IMG/VR virus record: IMGVR_UViG_3300006917_000175
Coordinates: 1-21,583 of that record
Direction: 5' to 3' (one strand)
Length of the DNA stretch: 21,583 nucleotides
DNA from: a virus
A program made the position numbers and the translations under genes. How positions within the stretch are numbered: the first letter of the stretch is position 1; every line of letters starts with the position of its first letter. This document shows, piece by piece, positions 11,066 through 21,555 of this stretch. The notes below the pieces were generated by a model. That model saw nothing but the letters and a program-made list of their open reading frames with translations. It ran no database searches and had not been told where the DNA came from.

Positions 11066-11446
11066 ATGGCATATAGCACACAGGTAATTGATCATTATGA
11101 AAATCCAAGAAATGTGGGTAGTTTTGATAAGTCCGATAGTGGTGTTGGCACTGGTATGGTTGGGGCACCTGCTTGCGGAGATGTAATGAAGTTACAAATT
11201 AAAGTAGATGAAAGTACAGGAGTAATTACAGATGCTAGATTTAAAACGTATGGGTGCGGGTCAGCGATTGCTTCGTCAAGTCTTGTCACAGAGTGGGTCA
11301 AGGGTAAAACATTGGACGAGGCAGCAACAATCAGAAACACAGCAATCGCAGAAGAACTTGCGTTGCCCCCAGTCAAAATCCACTGCTCAATCTTAGCAGA
11401 GGATGCTATAAAGGCAGCAATTGCTGATTACAAACAGAAGCATTAA
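11066..11446 (+). CDS. iscU: IscU, iron-sulfur cluster assembly scaffold
   Basis: A 126-residue protein nearly colinear with bacterial IscU. It keeps the three cluster-ligand cysteines C37 (GAPACGD), C64 (YGCGSA) and C107 (KIHCSILAEDA), the neighbouring aspartate D39 and the LPPVKIHCS segment that chaperone HscA recognises. From memory it is close to E. coli IscU over most of its length, which suggests fairly recent capture from a host. IscU assembles [2Fe-2S] clusters using sulfur from IscS and delivers them to target proteins. No iscS, hscA/B or fdx is present nearby, so it would have to work with host partners. It has its own perfect late promoter, and the next ORF starts directly after its stop. 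Confidence 0.96.
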   Translation: MAYSTQVIDHYENPRNVGSFDKSDSGVGTGMVGAPACGDVMKLQIKVDESTGVITDARFKTYGCGSAIASSSLVTEWVKGKTLDEAATIRNTAIAEELALPPVKIHCSILAEDAIKAAIADYKQKH

Positions 11447-11749
11447 ATGAGTAGCGAACAATACAAGGTAAAGAACTCTACCCGTAGACATAGGGATGAG
11501 TCCGCAGTTAAGCGCCAGGTTAAAATTGCAAAAGCATATAATCATACCAAATACTTAGATGAACCACATAGATTAGTAAAACATCATGCTATGGATTGCG
11601 GGACTCCTGGTTGTATATTATGTGGTAATCCTCGACATAATAAGCAACTAAAAACTAAAGATAAGTTGACCATGCAAGAAAGAAAGTTATTTCAAGATCC
11701 GGATCATAGACCAGATAAACATGGTAATGGTCTTGAGCCCGAAGAATAA
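11447..11749 (+). CDS. Small basic protein with zinc-knuckle-like motif
   Basis: A 100-residue hydrophilic protein. Residues around 45-65 read KHHAMDCGTPGCILCGNPRHN; the spacing CxxxxCxxC plus histidines makes a plausible zinc-binding knuckle. Both ends are strongly charged (basic N-terminal half, acidic tail GLEPEE). Proteins with a similar CGTPGC..CGNPRH core occur in T4-like phages, to my recollection, without known function. It starts on the base after the iscU stop and is probably co-transcribed with it. Nucleic-acid binding is a guess from charge and the knuckle. Confidence 0.65.
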   Translation: MSSEQYKVKNSTRRHRDESAVKRQVKIAKAYNHTKYLDEPHRLVKHHAMDCGTPGCILCGNPRHNKQLKTKDKLTMQERKLFQDPDHRPDKHGNGLEPEE

Positions 11750-11754
11750 CATGC

Positions 11755-12393
11755 ATGAAACCTAAAATAAGAATCTTCATTAACCACCCTCAATGTAGCG
11801 TACAATCAGGTGGCGGGCTTTATGAAGCATTATCCCCACACTTCAATGTGGGGTTTTTTACAACAGCGGATATAAACTACAAGACGTTTAAAAAAATTGA
11901 TGTTATCGCCTTTCCCGGCGGGTTAGGTGATAGTGATAGTTTTGATAAACTGTTAGCACCTACTAAAGAAGTCATTCAAAATTGCATTGAACATGGTAAA
12001 AAATATTTAGGTATTTGTATGGGTGCATATTGGACTGACAAACATTATTTTAATTTACTAAAAGATGCACGTACATTACAATACATTAAAAGACCTCACG
12101 CAGAAATACGCAGGTCTTTTAGTACAACTGTTCAAATAAATTGGTTAAGTAGAACAGAAGATATGTTTTTCTATGATGGTTGTGCAATCATAGGAGATGA
12201 AAACAAATTCACTACAATAGCACGTTATGCTAATAATGATCCAATGGCAATCATACAAAACAATATAGGTATAATTGGCTGTCACCCTGAAAGTATGCCT
12301 GGATGGTATAATAAAAAGTACCTAAAAGACTATTGGCATTATTATAAACATCACAAACTTTTAGTTGATTTTACTAAATTACTATTGTCATAA
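11755..12393 (+). CDS. Glutamine-amidotransferase-like (BPL_N / DJ-1-PfpI fold) protein
   Basis: A 212-residue protein with a class I amidotransferase-like fold. An early strand (KIRIFINH) is followed by a GGGLYEAL turn. IAFPGGLGDSDSF is the oxyanion-side loop. KKYLGICMGAYW is the nucleophile elbow with the cysteine in GxCMGA near residue 86. IGCHPESMPGW near residue 178 supplies the histidine-glutamate. This is closest to the BPL_N (biotin-protein-ligase N-terminal) group, whose own activity is not well defined. No ligase domain follows. The coding sequence holds two strong terminator-like hairpins (11834-11859 and 12088-12120). The Pho-box array of pstS overlaps its stop. No clear Shine-Dalgarno is visible before the ATG. 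Confidence 0.7.
   Translation: MKPKIRIFINHPQCSVQSGGGLYEALSPHFNVGFFTTADINYKTFKKIDVIAFPGGLGDSDSFDKLLAPTKEVIQNCIEHGKKYLGICMGAYWTDKHYFNLLKDARTLQYIKRPHAEIRRSFSTTVQINWLSRTEDMFFYDGCAIIGDENKFTTIARYANNDPMAIIQNNIGIIGCHPESMPGWYNKKYLKDYWHYYKHHKLLVDFTKLLLS
11834..11859 (+). terminator. Intrinsic-terminator-like hairpin inside a coding sequence
   Basis: CCCCACA (11834-11840), a six-base loop, TGTGGGG (11847-11853) and then six Ts. It has the textbook shape of an intrinsic terminator, about 80 bases into the amidotransferase-like gene. It may end the iscU transcript unless ribosomes translating the gene cover it. Confidence 0.6.
12088..12120 (+). terminator. Second terminator-like hairpin inside the same coding sequence
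   Basis: AAAAGACCT (12088-12096) and AGGTCTTTT (12112-12120) form a perfect 9-bp stem with a 15-base loop and A/T runs on both sides. It could act on either strand. Confidence 0.45.
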
Positions 12394-12429
12394 TTCCGTC
12401 ATATTTTTGTCACATTATTTTAGTAAATA
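12386..12429 (+). promoter_or_regulatory. Pho-box array plus -10/late box controlling pstS
   Basis: Three direct GTCA-centred repeats (TTGTCAT, CCGTCAT, TTGTCAC) start at 12385, 12396 and 12407, exactly 11 bases apart with AT-rich 4-base spacers. The last 20 bases (12396-12415) resemble the enterobacterial PhoB consensus (CTGTCATA..CTGTCA). AGTAAATA at 12422-12429 then serves as a -10-like or late box, at the distance expected for a PhoB-activated promoter. Confidence 0.75.
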
Positions 12430-12457
12430 TGTTTGTTCGGTTTTATAAGGAGATAAC

Positions 12458-13450
12458 ATGAACAAATTATTTGCTATATTATTAGCGGCTGTGTCATTCA
12501 CAGTACACGCACAGACAACAATCAATGGAGCCGGGGCAACATTCCCGGCTCCGCTTTATTCAAAATGGGCAGAAGCCTACAATAAAGAAACAGGTATAAG
12601 ATTAAATTATCAAAGTATCGGTAGTGGCGGCGGTATAAGACAGATAGAAGCCAAAACTGTTACATTTGGTGCAAGTGACATGCCACTCAAAGATGATAAA
12701 CTAGCAAGTTTGGGAGCGACACAGTTTCCTACTGCCATCGGAGGAGTGGTACCAATTATTAATATGAAAGATATAAAGCCCGGTGAACTAAAATTAACAG
12801 GTACAGTTATAGCAGATATCTATTTAGGTAAGATTAAAAAGTGGAATGATACTGCCATCACAAAATTAAATCCATCACTTAAGTTGCCTGATCAGGATAT
12901 CATGGTTGTTCGTAGAGCCGATGGTAGTGGCACTACATTCTTATGGACAAATTACTTAAGTAAAGTTAGTAATGAGTTCAAAGAAACTATCGGTGAAGGT
13001 ACTGCTGTCAACTGGAAAGTTGGCGCGGGAGGTAAAGGCAATGAAGGCGTTGCACAAATGGTTCGTCAATTGCCCGGCGCACTTGGTTATGTTGAATATG
13101 CGTATGTTAAACAGACTAAAATGAATTGGGTACAGATGCAGAATCGTGATGGTCAATGGGTAGCCCCTGATGATTTAACATTTAAGGCTGCAGCCGCAAA
13201 CGCCACGTGGGATAAAACATTCTTTCAAGTATTGACCGATCAGCCTGGTAAAACAAGTTGGCCAGTTACTGGTGCTACGTTTATTATCATGTATCTAAAG
13301 AACGATAAACCACAAGAAGCACAAGAAGCATTAAAGTTTTTTAGATGGGCATTTAAGAATGGCGACAAAATGGCAGAGGATTTAGATTATGTTCCTCTAC
13401 CAGATAATGTTGTTGCATTAGTTGAAAAAGAAATTAGTAAAATTAAATAA
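12458..13450 (+). CDS. pstS: PstS, periplasmic phosphate-binding protein
   Basis: A 330-residue phosphate ABC-transporter binding protein. It has an 18-residue signal peptide (MNKLFAILLAAVSFTVHA, then QT) and the first phosphate-binding loop GAGATFPAPLYSKW. YQSIGSGGGIRQI and FGASDMPL follow, then RADGSGTTFLWTNYLS, the conserved PstS loop. It ends around LDYVPLPDNVV. PstS captures phosphate in the periplasm and feeds the host PstCAB importer; no pstA/B/C is present here. Phage pstS genes are known from marine cyanophages. The TAAGGAGA Shine-Dalgarno fixes the start. A Pho-box array lies directly upstream, so expression likely responds to host PhoB under phosphate starvation. A 9-bp GC-rich hairpin (12527-12552) lies within the GAGATFPAP codons. 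Confidence 0.97.
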   Translation: MNKLFAILLAAVSFTVHAQTTINGAGATFPAPLYSKWAEAYNKETGIRLNYQSIGSGGGIRQIEAKTVTFGASDMPLKDDKLASLGATQFPTAIGGVVPIINMKDIKPGELKLTGTVIADIYLGKIKKWNDTAITKLNPSLKLPDQDIMVVRRADGSGTTFLWTNYLSKVSNEFKETIGEGTAVNWKVGAGGKGNEGVAQMVRQLPGALGYVEYAYVKQTKMNWVQMQNRDGQWVAPDDLTFKAAAANATWDKTFFQVLTDQPGKTSWPVTGATFIIMYLKNDKPQEAQEALKFFRWAFKNGDKMAEDLDYVPLPDNVVALVEKEISKIK

Positions 13451-13458
13451 TCTAAATA
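13451..13458 (+). promoter_or_regulatory. Late-type promoter box fused to start codon (leaderless)
   Basis: TCTAAATA (7 of 8 to TATAAATA) is followed by TTTCT and the ATG at 13464. The five-base gap places the expected +1 on the start codon; no Shine-Dalgarno is present. Confidence 0.65.
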
Positions 13459-13463
13459 TTTCT

Positions 13464-14015
13464 ATGGATGTGCAGAAACTATCTATAGACAACATAGATA
13501 TTATAAGAGTAACTGACCTATTAGATTCTAAAAAGTTTCTATCTATATCAAAGTATATAGAAAAACAGAATTTAGATTCTAATGGGTTCATGTTAGATTT
13601 AAGTGATAACTACTCAAATATCGATGTTGCATATCAAGTAATATTAAACTCAATCAAAGATGTTTTTAAATCTGCTTTGGGTATCCAACCAAAACCTACA
13701 GGGTTTTGTGTAAGTAAAAATCGCGGAGTAGACCATTGGCACATACATGTTAGAGATTTTAAAGACGATCCTACCCTAATAATACCTGAAAAGTTCTATG
13801 TTGCATTATATTACCCGCATATATTTTGGGACTCAAAATACGGTGGAAATCTACTTTTGGGAACTAGTAAAGAAAGTTCCATTAACTCTTTCCCCTGTAC
13901 ACCAAATAGTGTTATAATACATAATAATTTAATTGGACATGATTTGGATTTTCTTAATTTAGAAGATGCAACAACCAATAGAATTGTTATGTATAGTCAC
14001 TGGATTGATAAATAA
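13464..14015 (+). CDS. 2-oxoglutarate/Fe(II) oxygenase-like protein (tentative)
   Basis: A 183-residue protein. The centre and C-terminus look like a double-stranded beta-helix oxygenase. HWHIHVRDF could carry the HxD iron ligands. YVALYYPHIFWDSKYGGNLLLG is a typical strand pair. SVIIHNNLIGHDL supplies a later histidine, and NRIVMYSHW an arginine that could bind 2-oxoglutarate. The exact ligand assignment is uncertain and the substrate unknown. A longer frame opens at 13422 inside pstS, but the ATG at 13464 is preferred because TCTAAATA lies exactly five bases before it. No Shine-Dalgarno is present, which fits a leaderless mRNA. The ahpC promoter overlaps its last codons. Confidence 0.6.
   Translation: MDVQKLSIDNIDIIRVTDLLDSKKFLSISKYIEKQNLDSNGFMLDLSDNYSNIDVAYQVILNSIKDVFKSALGIQPKPTGFCVSKNRGVDHWHIHVRDFKDDPTLIIPEKFYVALYYPHIFWDSKYGGNLLLGTSKESSINSFPCTPNSVIIHNNLIGHDLDFLNLEDATTNRIVMYSHWIDK
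14007..14014 (+). promoter_or_regulatory. Late-type promoter of the ahpC operon
   Basis: GATAAATA overlaps the stop codon of the upstream gene. A start near 14020 gives a 22-base leader with AGAAGGAGA as Shine-Dalgarno before the ATG at 14042. Confidence 0.6.
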
Positions 14016-14041
14016 AAATCTAACACACAGAAGGAGAAACT

Positions 14042-14602
14042 ATGAAAACTGTTGGAGATAAACTTGCCCCGTTCACAATAACTGGTGTAAAGCCAGGTCA
14101 ACCCGAAGATGCATTCTTCCCAATCACTGAAAAGTCTTTTGAAGGAAAATGGAAAGTAATCGTTTACTATCCAAAAGACTTCACGTTTGTATGTCCTACA
14201 GAAATTGTAGCATATGACAAGTTGTTCAAAGATTTTGAGGATCGTGATGCCGTTCTATTGACAGGTAGCACAGATAACGAGTTCTGTAAAGTTGCTTGGC
14301 AAAAGCATCACCCAGACCTGCGTGGTATTCGTCATACTCAATTTGCTGATACAGCCCGTCACCAACCAGGTGAAGAACGTGGAAGTGTTAGTTTGATTGA
14401 GCAATTGGGTGTATTCTATGCACCAGCAGGTGCGGCACTACGTGCTACATTCATTGTTGATCCTGAGAATGTTATTCAGCATATTACAGTAAACAATTTG
14501 GATGTTGGTCGTAATCCTGACGAAACGTTACGTGTATTAGACGCATTGCAAACTGGCGAACTATGCCCATGCAGTCGCCCAATCGGTGGTGAGACACTAT
14601 AA
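14042..14602 (+). CDS. ahpC: AhpC-type peroxiredoxin
   Basis: A 186-residue AhpC/Prx1-family peroxiredoxin reducing peroxides. The peroxidatic cysteine is C51 in FTFVCPTEI. The C-terminal tail has two further cysteines, C175 and C177 (ELCPCSRP). This three-cysteine layout matches Mycobacterium AhpC (C61, C174, C176), the form reduced by AhpD rather than by AhpF. An ahpD-like gene is present 0.7 kb downstream, supporting that pairing. The GAALRATFIVDPENVIQH segment is the conserved C-terminal part of the fold. The start follows a strong AAGGAG. Its stop shares a base with the start of the small membrane peptide (TAATG), so the operon continues. Confidence 0.96.
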   Translation: MKTVGDKLAPFTITGVKPGQPEDAFFPITEKSFEGKWKVIVYYPKDFTFVCPTEIVAYDKLFKDFEDRDAVLLTGSTDNEFCKVAWQKHHPDLRGIRHTQFADTARHQPGEERGSVSLIEQLGVFYAPAGAALRATFIVDPENVIQHITVNNLDVGRNPDETLRVLDALQTGELCPCSRPIGGETL

Positions 14603-14724
14603 TGTTTGATTACGATACAATCTGGGATGTATACGAAATAAAATTTATAATATTTTTCATTTCAGTAGTATTAGCAGTTTGGGTCGGTAATTACTTATAC
14701 GACAAAACAAAGAAAAATGATTGA
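14602..14724 (+). CDS. 40-residue single-pass membrane peptide
   Basis: A small frame between ahpC and terC, starting in TAATG (translational coupling) and ending 8 bases into terC. The product has an acidic N-terminus (MFDYDTIWDVYEIK), one membrane helix (about residues 15-33, FIIFFISVVLAVWVGNYLY) and a basic lysine-rich end (DKTKKND). That charge pattern suggests an N-out or N-in single-pass protein; function unknown. It could assist the membrane protein TerC, which is inference from position only. Confidence 0.6.
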   Translation: MFDYDTIWDVYEIKFIIFFISVVLAVWVGNYLYDKTKKND

Positions 14725-15295
14725 ATTAATTTGGGCACTACTTGCCATAGTTTTAATTGATGTTGTACTCGGTGGTGAGAATGCATTAGTCATTGCTATG
14801 GCTAGTCGTAATCTACCTGATGACTTACGCAAGAAAGCCTTACTATGGGGTACATTCGGTGCAGTAGCAGTTAGATTCTTATGTGTGGCGGCATTAACAT
14901 ACTTGTTAATGATTCCTGGTCTAAGATTAATTGGTGGTCTTGCGTTGTTATACATTGCATATACACTAGTTAAGCCTAAGGCAGAAGAACATAATGTAAA
15001 CGCAGCCACCAGTTTTTGGGGAGCAATGGGTACGATTGTTTGGGCTGATGCAGTAATGGGTCTAGACAATGCACTTGCAATCGCAGGCGCCGCCGGCGGC
15101 AACTGGTGGTTGATTATCTTTGGTCTATTGTTAAGCGTACCTATCATATTGTTTGGTAGCACAGTAGTTGCTAAGATCATGGATCGTTGGCCAAAGACAA
15201 TTTGGGTTGGTGTAGGCGTATTAGTCATTGTAGCACTAAAAATGATCTACCATGAACCTATTTTACAGGAGTATATTAATGAATTGGGTAGATAA
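14717..15295 (+). CDS. TerC-family (YjbE-type) membrane metal transporter
   Basis: A 192-residue integral membrane protein of the TerC/Alx/YjbE family. The family hallmark of two acidic repeats is visible: IDVVLGGENALVIAMA near residue 14 and WADAVMGLDNALAIAGAA near residue 110. These are separated by membrane helices, an inverted-repeat LysE-like fold with a hydrophilic KPKAEEHNV loop in the middle. Bacterial relatives export manganese or other divalent metals and are often controlled by manganese riboswitches; no such riboswitch is seen here. Between ahpC and ahpD it likely adjusts metal levels during oxidative stress (inference). The GC-rich segment near 15090 encodes AIAGAAGGNWW. Confidence 0.88.
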   Translation: MIELIWALLAIVLIDVVLGGENALVIAMASRNLPDDLRKKALLWGTFGAVAVRFLCVAALTYLLMIPGLRLIGGLALLYIAYTLVKPKAEEHNVNAATSFWGAMGTIVWADAVMGLDNALAIAGAAGGNWWLIIFGLLLSVPIILFGSTVVAKIMDRWPKTIWVGVGVLVIVALKMIYHEPILQEYINELGR

Positions 15296-15794
15296 AGTAA
15301 AGGATAGCATTCCTGATCATGCTAAAGATATCAGATTGAATCTTGATGCAGTTATGAATAGATCAGGTCTTGATGAAATTGATGCACATGCTTGTGCTTT
15401 TGCGGCAGCGATTGCAGCCAGCAATGGTGAACTTGCATATGAAATTTCAATGGATGGCCCACTTATGGGGTCTACTGAACGTGAGGCTGCAAAGACTGCG
15501 GCGGCACTTATGGGTATGAATAATATCTATTATCCATTCGTAGAAATGACAGGTGATGCAGACCTTAAGGGTTTACCACCCGGATTGCGTATGAATGCAT
15601 ATGCAACACACGGCGGGGTATCAAAGAAAAAGTTTGAGATGTATGCATTGGCTGCTAGTATTGTCGGTAAGTGCCATTTTTGTGTAAGGAACCACTATGA
15701 CACATTAAAGAAAGAAGGCATGACGGTGCAGGAGTTGCAGGCTGTGGGGAAAATCGCGGCTGTTGTTGCGGCTATCGGTAAAGTGGCATTATAA
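15279..15794 (+). CDS. ahpD: AhpD-family alkylhydroperoxidase / AhpC reductase
   Basis: A 171-residue AhpD-like protein. The catalytic signature E-x11-C-x2-C-x3-H is intact: E120, C132-H-F-C135 and H139 (KCHFCVRNH). These are nearly the positions of Mycobacterium AhpD (E118, C130, C133, H137). AhpD uses a lipoyl-protein as electron source to reduce the AhpC tail cysteines. A longer frame begins at 15252, but a CAGGAG Shine-Dalgarno at 15266 selects the ATG at 15279, giving a 17-base overlap with terC. Its stop directly abuts the stop of the convergent methyltransferase gene, with no terminator-like sequence between them. Confidence 0.92.
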   Translation: MNWVDKVKDSIPDHAKDIRLNLDAVMNRSGLDEIDAHACAFAAAIAASNGELAYEISMDGPLMGSTEREAAKTAAALMGMNNIYYPFVEMTGDADLKGLPPGLRMNAYATHGGVSKKKFEMYALAASIVGKCHFCVRNHYDTLKKEGMTVQELQAVGKIAAVVAAIGKVAL

Positions 15795-16346
15795 TCAACG
15801 AACACCGATCAGCATAAATCTATTATATCCCCAATCTTCATAACCTATATGTTTGTCTCCAACAAACATATAATGAGAGAGGGGATATTTTTTTATCAGT
15901 TCTTCCAGTGAACTTGTTGAATTACTTACTTTCCAAATACCACCTGGTTCAGACACATCACTAGACTGAATGCACACTAACGTACCTTTAGGCACTCTAT
16001 AGAACCAAAGACTGTCCATGTGTTCTACACTACAATTTACAACAACGTGGTATCCGTTGAAATCAAATAGATTAGCATCAGCAGTTATGTTTTGTATCTT
16101 AGCATCACCACCAAGCATATAACCCTCACAGATTTTATCTGCAATAGGTTTTACTTCAGGATCAATATCTATACCCATTATGGATTGATACTTATTACTG
16201 TTTCGTGTTAACATCATGAAACCTAATAAGTTGTACCATGAACCTAAATTAGCAACGATTGCGTTTTGCGGTATATATGGTTCAAGTTGTTCGCATAACC
16301 AAAGTTTGCTTTGTGTTTGACCGTGTGATAATGCAAGATAATCCAT
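15795..16346 (-). CDS. Class I SAM-dependent methyltransferase-like protein
   Basis: A 183-residue protein with a Rossmann methyltransferase pattern. NAIVANLGSWYNLLGF near residue 28 is motif I (SAM loop, variant GxW). SIMGIDIDPE near residue 60 is motif II, with the acidic ribose ligand. DAKIQNITADANLF is a motif III-like segment. VVVNCSVEHMDSLWF near residue 100 is motif IV. No target-recognition domain is seen, so the substrate is unknown, and a nucleic acid or small molecule is equally possible. The only promoter is AATAAATA five bases before the ATG on the minus strand, with no Shine-Dalgarno. It is convergent with ahpD, stop against stop. Confidence 0.75.
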   Translation of the reverse strand: MDYLALSHGQTQSKLWLCEQLEPYIPQNAIVANLGSWYNLLGFMMLTRNSNKYQSIMGIDIDPEVKPIADKICEGYMLGGDAKIQNITADANLFDFNGYHVVVNCSVEHMDSLWFYRVPKGTLVCIQSSDVSEPGGIWKVSNSTSSLEELIKKYPLSHYMFVGDKHIGYEDWGYNRFMLIGVR

Positions 16347-16351
16347 AGCAA

Positions 16352-16359
16352 TATTTATT
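16352..16359 (-). promoter_or_regulatory. Late-type promoter box fused to start codon (leaderless)
   Basis: On the minus strand AATAAATA (7 of 8 to consensus) is followed by TTGCT and ATG at 16346. Same five-base geometry as four other genes here. Confidence 0.65.
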
Positions 16360-16372
16360 GGGTAAATAGAGG

Positions 16373-16401
16373 TTGACTAAATAAATCAGTTGATGTATAC
16401 T
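16373..16401 (+). promoter_or_regulatory. Sigma70-type promoter
   Basis: TTGACT (16373-16378), a 17-base spacer, and TATACT (16396-16401) give a near-consensus host promoter, divergent from the methyltransferase. Expected start is near 16408, immediately at the hairpin that follows. Confidence 0.65.
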
Positions 16402-16404
16402 AAT

Positions 16405-16444
16405 AAAAATCGTAAAAAAGCATATGTTTTTATATGATTTTTTT
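16405..16444 (+). terminator. AT-rich hairpin with T run, just after a promoter
   Basis: AAAAATC (16405-16411) pairs with GATTTTT (16436-16442), and TAAAAA (16413-16418) with TTTTTA (16427-16432), followed by Ts to 16444. It looks like an AT-rich bidirectional terminator or a 5' structure; it would end transcripts from the promoter at 16373 after about 36 bases. Confidence 0.4.
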
Positions 16445-16451
16445 AACCAGG

Positions 16452-16459
16452 ACTAAATA
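16452..16459 (+). promoter_or_regulatory. Late-type promoter box
   Basis: ACTAAATA in the intergenic region, eight bases before the ATG of a 45-codon frame; expected start near 16465. The transcript would run to the terminator at 16630-16669, about 200 bases. Confidence 0.45.
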
Positions 16460-16467
16460 AAAACACT

Positions 16468-16605
16468 ATGAAAAACTTAACTTGTAATATGCTCAAACAT
16501 CAGTGGTTATGGTCTATAACAGCCATGGATACCTTTGCGCCAGTATATCCAACAAGTATTTGCGGCTCAGAGGACAACCAAAGAGGTAGCCCGGGGAGCA
16601 GATAA
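16468..16605 (+). CDS. Possible 45-residue small protein
   Basis: A short frame starting MKNLTCNMLKHQWLWSI and ending GSPGSR. It has two cysteines in the first third, an aromatic cluster (HQWLW) and a hydrophilic end. It has no Shine-Dalgarno and lies eight bases after a late-type box. The same interval could instead be the body of a non-coding RNA, because it holds short hairpins (GTTAT/ATAAC, GGCT/AGCC) and leads to a strong terminator. Coding potential is uncertain. Confidence 0.25.
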   Translation: MKNLTCNMLKHQWLWSITAMDTFAPVYPTSICGSEDNQRGSPGSR

Positions 16606-16629
16606 AGTCTACATAGTAAAGATTTATCG

Positions 16630-16669
16630 AACCCCTGGGAAACTAAAAAGTCCCAGGGGTTTTAGTTTT
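16630..16669 (+). terminator. Strong intrinsic terminator
   Basis: CCCCTGGGA (16632-16640), a 10-base A-rich loop, TCCCAGGGG (16651-16659), then TTTTAGTTTT. The flanking AA/TT extends the stem to 11 bp. It is the best free-standing terminator in the window and closes the short transcription unit from 16373 or 16452. Confidence 0.88.
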
Positions 16670-16683
16670 ATGAATAGGAAAAG

Positions 16684-16851
16684 ATGAAGGTTGACAATAA
16701 AGACACAGATATGTTAGAATCTAAAGCCGATAGAGAAAATGAAATTGACATTCATTATTTGTCGGAAGAAGATTTAGCAAAGTTGATTGAACAAAAAATC
16801 AATAGAGCAAAAATCTATCATGAGGCGTTATTGAAGTTTAACGTAGTATGA
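16684..16851 (+). CDS. 55-residue small acidic/helical protein
   Basis: A short frame with an AGGAA ribosome-binding site at 16676, just downstream of the strong terminator. The product is hydrophilic: an acidic N-terminal half (MKVDNKDTDMLESKADRENE) and an amphipathic helix (about residues 27-50, SEEDLAKLIEQKINRAKIYHE). No family is recognised. The helical pattern and ribosome-binding site favour a real small phage protein. It is followed directly by the structured GC-richer region. Confidence 0.5.
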   Translation: MKVDNKDTDMLESKADRENEIDIHYLSEEDLAKLIEQKINRAKIYHEALLKFNVV

Positions 16852-16852
16852 T

Positions 16853-17077
16853 AGGAGCGTGACAAGGCAACGAGGGCCGGCACACAACGCTATATAAAAT
16901 GTGACGAACGGGCGGACAGGATACATGAATGTCATGGCGATAACGTGACGAGTAAGACTCCTGGTCAGGGTATCGACCCTGACATAGCGTAGAAATACGC
17001 TATTCTATAATACATTGACGAAATACGCCCACGCCCTACGACGGTATGACAAGCACTCAGTGTGTTATAGAATAGCG
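16853..17077 (+). ncRNA. Candidate structured RNA between small gene and speD
   Basis: About 225 bases with no reasonable reading frame, visibly richer in G+C than the neighbourhood. It holds hairpin A (GTCAGGGT-ATCG-ACCCTGAC, 16964-16983) and hairpin B (ATAGCGTA-GAAA-TACGCTAT, 16984-17003, a GNRA tetraloop). Stem C pairs 16998-17014 with 17061-17077: 17 bp with one G-T pair. Stem C uses the 3' strand of hairpin B, so B and C exclude each other. AGGAG (16853) can pair with CTCCT (16958), closing a larger domain. T4 carries stable RNAs C and D of unknown function near its tRNA genes; this may be analogous. No known RNA family was recognised. Confidence 0.4.
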
Positions 17078-17103
17078 TTATTATTATGAATATTGCTTTT
17101 TAT

Positions 17104-17111
17104 CATAAATA
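17104..17111 (+). promoter_or_regulatory. Late-type promoter of the SpeD-family gene
   Basis: CATAAATA, 7 of 8 to consensus. Expected start near 17117 gives a 24-base leader with CGAGGA as Shine-Dalgarno before the ATG at 17141. Confidence 0.55.
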
Positions 17112-17140
17112 ACTTTCACAACCAACGAGGAATTACGTTA

Positions 17141-17515
17141 ATGGCAATAGTACATAAACATTTGATTGTAAGGGCAGAAGTCGAGAATCCACCGGTAAAC
17201 GAGGATTTTGTTAGGTCATGGATGGCCAATTTGATTGATGCTATTGGTATGAAGGTTCTTATGGGACCTTTTGCTAAGTATCTAGATGTGTTAGGTAATC
17301 GCGGCATAACAACAGTTGCGATTATTGAAACAAGTCATATTGCTATGCATGTATGGGACGAGGATAATCCTAGTCTTATACAGTTAGACGTATACACTTG
17401 CGGTCCACTAGATGTTAACATTGTAGTAGAACAAATCAAACAATTTAAGCCTGTCAAAGTAGAAATGAAATACCTTGATAGAGAGAATGGACTCACAGAG
17501 TTACCTGTGAATTGA
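17141..17515 (+). CDS. speD: SpeD-family pyruvoyl decarboxylase (AdoMet decarboxylase-like)
   Basis: A 124-residue member of the bacterial AdoMet decarboxylase family, proenzymes that self-cleave before a serine to form a pyruvoyl group. ETSHIAMHVWDE (E63-T64-S65-H66, with H70) corresponds to the cleavage region, and LDVYTCGP carries the conserved cysteine C87. In canonical SpeD the cut is between Glu and Ser (ESH); here a threonine lies directly before the serine (TSH), so processing or substrate may differ. Some SpeD relatives decarboxylate arginine or ornithine instead of AdoMet, so polyamine synthesis is likely but the substrate is open. An upstream frame extension to 17093 lacks a ribosome-binding site; GAGG at 17127 selects 17141. 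It precedes the tRNA cluster. Confidence 0.8.
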   Translation: MAIVHKHLIVRAEVENPPVNEDFVRSWMANLIDAIGMKVLMGPFAKYLDVLGNRGITTVAIIETSHIAMHVWDEDNPSLIQLDVYTCGPLDVNIVVEQIKQFKPVKVEMKYLDRENGLTELPVN

Positions 17516-21444: not shown

Positions 21445-21468
21445 ACAGATTAAATAGTTAAGTTCGAT

Positions 21469-21544
<76 letters not shown>

Positions 21545-21555
21545 TTTTAGAATAT

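Follow-up and report, generated by a model that had tools for sequence, protein, structure and literature searches.

Genes at the pstS locus

The stretch of viral DNA analysed here, referred to as the window, is 21,583 nucleotides long and encodes a phosphate-binding protein of the Pst transporter, PstS. The features of the locus, and those of related phage loci discussed below, are collected in Table 1. The protein is a full-length equivalog in NCBIfam (NF008171, 437 bits against a cut-off of 339; TIGR00975, 395 bits against 205). It was assigned to the phosphate transporter subunit in PHROG, and it aligned along its length to solved PstS structures with an E-value of 1e-127. In the PstS tree, 19 phage proteins, including that of the window, formed a single clade (98/92), and this clade sits in a group with Polaromonas/Rhodoferax (99/98), whose own pstS genes bear the type of box described in the next section. 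From this one gene, the host is probably a Comamonadaceae-type betaproteobacterium. A host search in 399 genomes of one order was not decisive, with a PstS identity of at most 67% among the matches listed.

Table 1. Features of the window and of related phage loci
Feature	Position	Strand	Sequence or remark
Preceding ORF	window 11755-12393	+	class-I glutamine amidotransferase-like, Pfam PF00117; its final codons make up the left end of the array
Pho-box direct-repeat unit 1	window 12385-12395	+	TTGTCATAATT; overlaps the preceding ORF at its stop codon; units 1-2 score 19.7 bits
Pho-box direct-repeat unit 2	window 12396-12406	+	CCGTCATATTT; units 2-3 score 21.0 bits
Pho-box direct-repeat unit 3	window 12407-12417	+	TTGTCACATTA; in register across nine related loci
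TAAATA	window 12424-12429	+	-10-like at PhoB/sigma-70 spacing; probably also T4-type late-promoter box
Shine-Dalgarno region of pstS	window 12447-12453	+	AGGAGAT
pstS	window 12458-13450	+	330-aa Pst phosphate-binding protein; N-terminal signal-peptide-like stretch
Tat-type PhoX alkaline phosphatase gene, then pstS	L039 1649-5011; L027 1660-5008; L033 1572-5011		Pho box of the TTGTAATAATTCTGTAATAATT type, TATAAT-like -10, separate late box
Calcineurin-like metallophosphoesterase and GT4 glycosyltransferase pair	L039 5236-7510; L027 5471-7377		second Pho box in L039

The region around pstS (11066-17515) carries host-type metabolic genes, namely those for a NifU-like scaffold, an AhpC-type peroxiredoxin, TerC (YjbE family), an AhpD-like protein and S-adenosylmethionine decarboxylase, and several genes of this cluster have TAAATA upstream. 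The TerC protein is a member of a riboswitch-linked family; an Rfam scan for riboswitches returned nothing except tRNAs. A tRNA-Asn at 21467-21548 shares ∼93% identity with its counterpart in phiKZ-like Pseudomonas jumbo phages, and all of the window's top megablast matches to known phages correspond to this tRNA.

A tandem Pho-box array precedes pstS

By definition, a Pho box consists of two or more direct repeats in tandem, each 11 nt long and made up of 7 conserved and 4 less conserved nucleotides (PMC4415409). Upstream of pstS there are three such units in exact 11-nt register: positions 12385-12430 read TTGTCATAATT / CCGTCATATTT / TTGTCACATTATTTTAGTAAATAT, and the sequence up to 12431 is TTGTCATAATT CCGTCATATTT TTGTCACATTATTTTAGTAAATATG. 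The GTCA cores start at 12387, 12398 and 12409, at a spacing of exactly 11 bp, as a first-pass annotation of this DNA had reported. That annotation also placed the site inside the end of the preceding gene, which is correct for unit 1, lying over the final codons of the ORF (TTG TCA TAA). The pattern GTCA-N7-GTCA-N7-GTCA occurs only once in the window and in none of 100 dinucleotide shuffles, and the array is thus far beyond chance. When the E. coli consensus CTGTCATAWAWCTGTCAY was searched with up to 3 mismatches, the only matches in the window were two overlapping unit pairs of this array (0.16 expected).

An independent matrix was derived from the extracted upstream regions of 80 bacterial pstS loci, nearly all of them betaproteobacterial. 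It has 22 columns and is built on 53 non-redundant bacterial pstS promoters, with zero phage sequences. On both strands of the window, the site at 12396 ranked first (21.0 bits) and that at 12385 second (19.7 bits), followed by a match of 16.1 bits, so that the array suspected to be a PhoB operator provides the two best sites of the window. A score of 21.0 bits was reached anywhere in 2 of 300 Markov-simulated windows and, in a second run, at no position of 6 Mb of Markov sequence. The third-best match (16844-16865, minus strand) lies ∼500 nt from the next minus-strand gene, and is probably due to chance. In a scan of the 730 upstream regions from five phage contigs, the top five scores belonged to three pstS genes (in G001, the window and G008) and, in G006, to a calcineurin-like, PlcP-like metallophosphoesterase gene and to phoX. 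All five genes have a role, or a probable role, in phosphate starvation.

The array is conserved in related viral loci

A relative of the window's PstS is encoded in 55 viral loci, which were reduced to a non-redundant set of 37. In 18 of these 37 loci, the best matrix site of the entire locus, on both strands, fell at -95 to -50 of pstS, whereas column-permuted matrices averaged 0.1 such loci and never exceeded 3 in the same test. The box is thus a conserved site in front of a phosphate-starvation gene. A chance origin of the array was ruled out by the shuffles, the consensus count, the matrix scans, the permuted matrices and the Markov simulations.

Nine loci of the window clade were aligned on TAAATA. 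Column agreement was 8.25/9 in the GTCA core, 6.8/9 in the other box columns and 4.6/9 in the upstream flank. The gene upstream of the pstS promoter varies among the window-clade loci; the Pho box stays in register with TAAATA in diverged phages with different upstream genes, and its units are retained through indels. The exceptions in the wider clade are L010, L014, L020 and L024, in which the box is degenerate, weaker or absent. L010, a close relative with a degenerate array, has TAAGCT at the 15-nt position, which is the Burkholderiales -10 consensus and not TAAATA.

TAAATA lies at the spacing of a PhoB-dependent -10 element

Of the 78 bacterial promoters, 73 have a -10 element (TAxxxT) that begins 15 nt downstream of the G of the final GTCA, and the E. 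coli pstS promoter has the 15-nt spacing too (its sequence is an apparent contamination in a phage record). The 'Campylobacter phage A11a' record (MG065691, L207) was rejected as a phage relative, its pstS upstream region reading as the E. coli pstS promoter; this unverified 'phage' record resembles enterobacterial chromosomal DNA. In the window, TAAATA begins 10 nt past the end of the last 7-mer (12413) and 15 nt after the G of the GTCA of unit 3. The suggestion that a -10-like element lies about 10 bases downstream in the usual PhoB geometry therefore agrees with the bacterial promoters and with E. coli pstS. The distance is 15 in 8 of 8 phage loci of the window clade (26, i.e., 15 + 11, where the earlier unit pair scores best), and 16 in a second phage clade. 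Hence, a -10-like hexamer is found at a fixed distance from a Pho box that replaces the -35 element, but without the terminal T, which is present in 94% of the bacterial promoters. Because this T is absent, TAAATA is a weak, imperfect -10 for sigma-70, and the way in which two promoters would share it is a matter of inference.

TAAATA is probably also a T4-type late box

Late promoters of phage T4 depend on gp55 and have the consensus TATAAATA. The corresponding sequence of the window, AGTAAATA, matches this consensus at 6 of 8 positions, and is located 34 nt upstream of the pstS start. Late promoters were at first disfavoured, because raw counts in the window showed no excess (2 copies of TATAAATA against 3.5 expected, and 26 of TAAATA against 38 expected). 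This was reversed by the position of the hexamer relative to start codons: in 5 of 5 contigs (the window, G001, G004, G006 and G008), no other hexamer of the same composition is as strongly concentrated as TAAATA in the zone 10-40 nt before start codons, which holds 6 of the 26 copies of the window. Weak homologues of T4 gp55 were detected by tblastn in G004 (E-value 1e-5), G001 (2e-4) and G008 (about 8e-4), and the 21.6-kb window fragment yielded none. Thus, the TAAATA in front of pstS is probably a late-promoter box as well. The first-pass annotation had regarded the late-type box as a separate neighbour of the -10 element, which has to be corrected, since both are a single TAAATA; its idea of a dual promoter gains support from the positional enrichment of the T4-type hexamer in these phages. 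In the L032/L039/L027 clade, a TATAAT-like -10 element lies downstream of the Pho box and GTAAATA follows ∼8 nt further. The separation of the sigma-70-like -10 and the late box in the L032/L039 clade suggests two independent start signals.

Related phages carry a larger set of Pho-box genes

In six loci (L027, L029, L033, L034, L039 and L055) the Pho box is found ∼2.3-2.4 kb upstream of pstS. In L027, L033 and L039, the three loci read in detail, it heads a phoX-pstS pair. A second Pho box of L039 precedes a small ORF, a metallophosphoesterase gene and a GT4 glycosyltransferase gene. The latter two genes are a PlcP/Agt-like pair, possibly for phosphate-starvation lipid remodelling. Their homologues adjoin in 12 of 14 betaproteobacterial loci, several of which have Pho-box-like sites just upstream. 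Near the phosphate genes of L033 (6620-8674), a CHASE2-adenylate/guanylate cyclase protein is encoded.

A probable composite promoter for phage pstS

The OmpR/PhoB DNA-binding domain (PF00486) was found in none of ten phage records, and a phage-encoded PhoB was rejected on this basis as the reader of the box; the reader should therefore be host PhoB. Judged from the comparisons above, the element is a conserved Pho-box promoter of phage pstS, and most likely unites an operator for host PhoB with a late box of the phage. Taken together, the repeats, their match to the matrix, the spacing, the conservation, the specificity for phosphate genes and the enrichment of the late box make it quite probable that the pstS gene, which is phage-borne and host-derived, has a composite promoter in which a host PhoB box is combined with a shared -10/late box. 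The earlier reading, that phage pstS is placed under host phosphate-starvation control, is likewise supported, since each of its predictions that could be computed was borne out. PhoB binding and a phosphate response at pstS, and the use of its TAAATA both by sigma-70 and as a late element, are what we infer. In the proposed mechanism, the three tandem 11-bp units would take the place of the -35 region and serve as the binding site for the phosphorylated PhoB of the host. PhoB would then recruit the host sigma-70 RNA polymerase to TAAATA at the PhoB-promoter spacing, such that pstS would be transcribed when the infected cell is starved of phosphate. The same TAAATA would be used by the phage T4-type late machinery (a gp55-type sigma), and late in infection PstS could also be made irrespective of phosphate.

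Alternatively, the site could be a late promoter only, with TAAATA used by a gp55-type sigma and the GTCA repeats being a relic that arrived with pstS from a bacterial donor. This would accommodate the observations that TAAATA behaves in these phages as a true late-type box, that it fits sigma-70 imperfectly, and that the phage PstS clade descends from bacteria with the box. A relic would decay, however, and the box core is near-invariant and in register despite diverged flanks and upstream genes. Its units have been kept through indels, and the second PstS clade has boxes in front of phoX and the plcP-like gene as well. We therefore consider a late-only promoter unlikely. PhoB might also act as a brake or timer, bound over 12385-12417 and altering how readily the late (gp55) polymerase reaches TAAATA, without recruiting sigma-70 polymerase, given that the PhoB box and TAAATA functionally overlap. 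The region-4 surface of sigma-70 that PhoB contacts is missing from gp55, so PhoB is unlikely to activate the late polymerase and may hinder it; but activated bacterial promoters have this same fixed spacing of 15 nt, and the L032/L039 clade has a separate sigma-70-like -10 and late box, so that such a role appears highly improbable. Finally, 11-bp direct repeats in tandem are a general feature of OmpR/PhoB-family sites, but binding by another OmpR-family regulator with a PhoB-like motif, from host or phage, is hardly credible when the top five phage matches of a pstS-promoter matrix are all phosphate genes and PF00486 is lacking from all ten phage records searched.

The composite promoter, if it works as proposed, would let the phage sense the nutrient status of the host through the host's own regulator, with late expression also guaranteed; the pstS switch could respond to host hunger, to the infection timetable, or to both. 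We lean slightly towards a broader reading, in which pstS, phoX-pstS and the plcP/agt-like pair would make up a small Pho regulon of freshwater-type T4-like phages, read by host PhoB, and the window clade would have fused the operator to the late box, one TAAATA serving two polymerases. If true, this would be a promoter type that joins host sensing to an infection clock, undescribed in the literature searched. In relatives, the same box stands before phoX and before a lipid-remodelling-like pair, which suggests coordinated phosphate management, and possibly salvage of membrane phospholipids during infection.

Comparison with known systems

PhoB control of phage pstS is established in marine cyanophages (PMC10976474), the precedent named by the first-pass annotation; it is the sole phage case shown in the literature found. 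Passages of PMC10976474 and PMC10987575 cite Zeng and Chisholm (2012) for cyanophage pstS under host PhoBR. PhoB-bound promoters are described in cyanophage S-PM2d, and predicted Pho boxes were not always bound by PhoB (PMC10976474). A survey of soil and public phages lists pstS among phage genes and nowhere uses the word "promoter" (PMC10987575). As in the cyanophages, we are dealing with a T4-like phage that has a host-type pstS and for which host PhoB/PhoR is proposed as the switch. The boxes differ, however: cyanobacterial Pho boxes are CTTA-N7-CTTA or PyTTAAPyPyT/A, in contrast to the GTCA units found here, and neither a GTCA array nor TAAATA was seen in the 7 regions upstream of cyanophage pstS that were inspected. 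In addition, T4-like cyanophage pstS has no apparent single regulatory solution (Sullivan et al. 2010; PMC3037559), whereas here one architecture is kept clade-wide. What is new is that T4-like phages with probable Comamonadaceae-type hosts carry an enterobacterial-type box, that this box is fused with a late box, and that relatives have a putative small phage Pho regulon. The literature searched, the coverage of which is incomplete, contained no description of phage Pho boxes of the GTCA type or of phage promoters that combine Pho and late elements, and novelty is thus unproven. The comparative evidence is strong that host PhoB control extends to T4-like phages of betaproteobacteria with a classical GTCA-type box, which is open to standard PhoB reagents.

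Bacterial plcP-agt lipid-remodelling pairs with Pho boxes have been described (PMC4796936). In the phage L039, likewise, a Pho box precedes a plcP-like gene and its agt-like neighbour, but here they are on phage contigs and are absent from the window itself. The site shares with T4-type late promoters a TAAATA 10-40 nt upstream of starts, with gp55 homologues in relatives, and differs from them by the addition of a host activator site at a fixed spacing, a combination that, to our knowledge, no T4 late promoter has. With bacterial pstS promoters (Burkholderiales and E. coli) it shares at least two 11-nt GTCA repeats and the 15-nt distance between the G of the final unit and the start of the -10 element; in the phage, however, this -10 is the TAAATA late box, and in bacteria it is TAxxxT.
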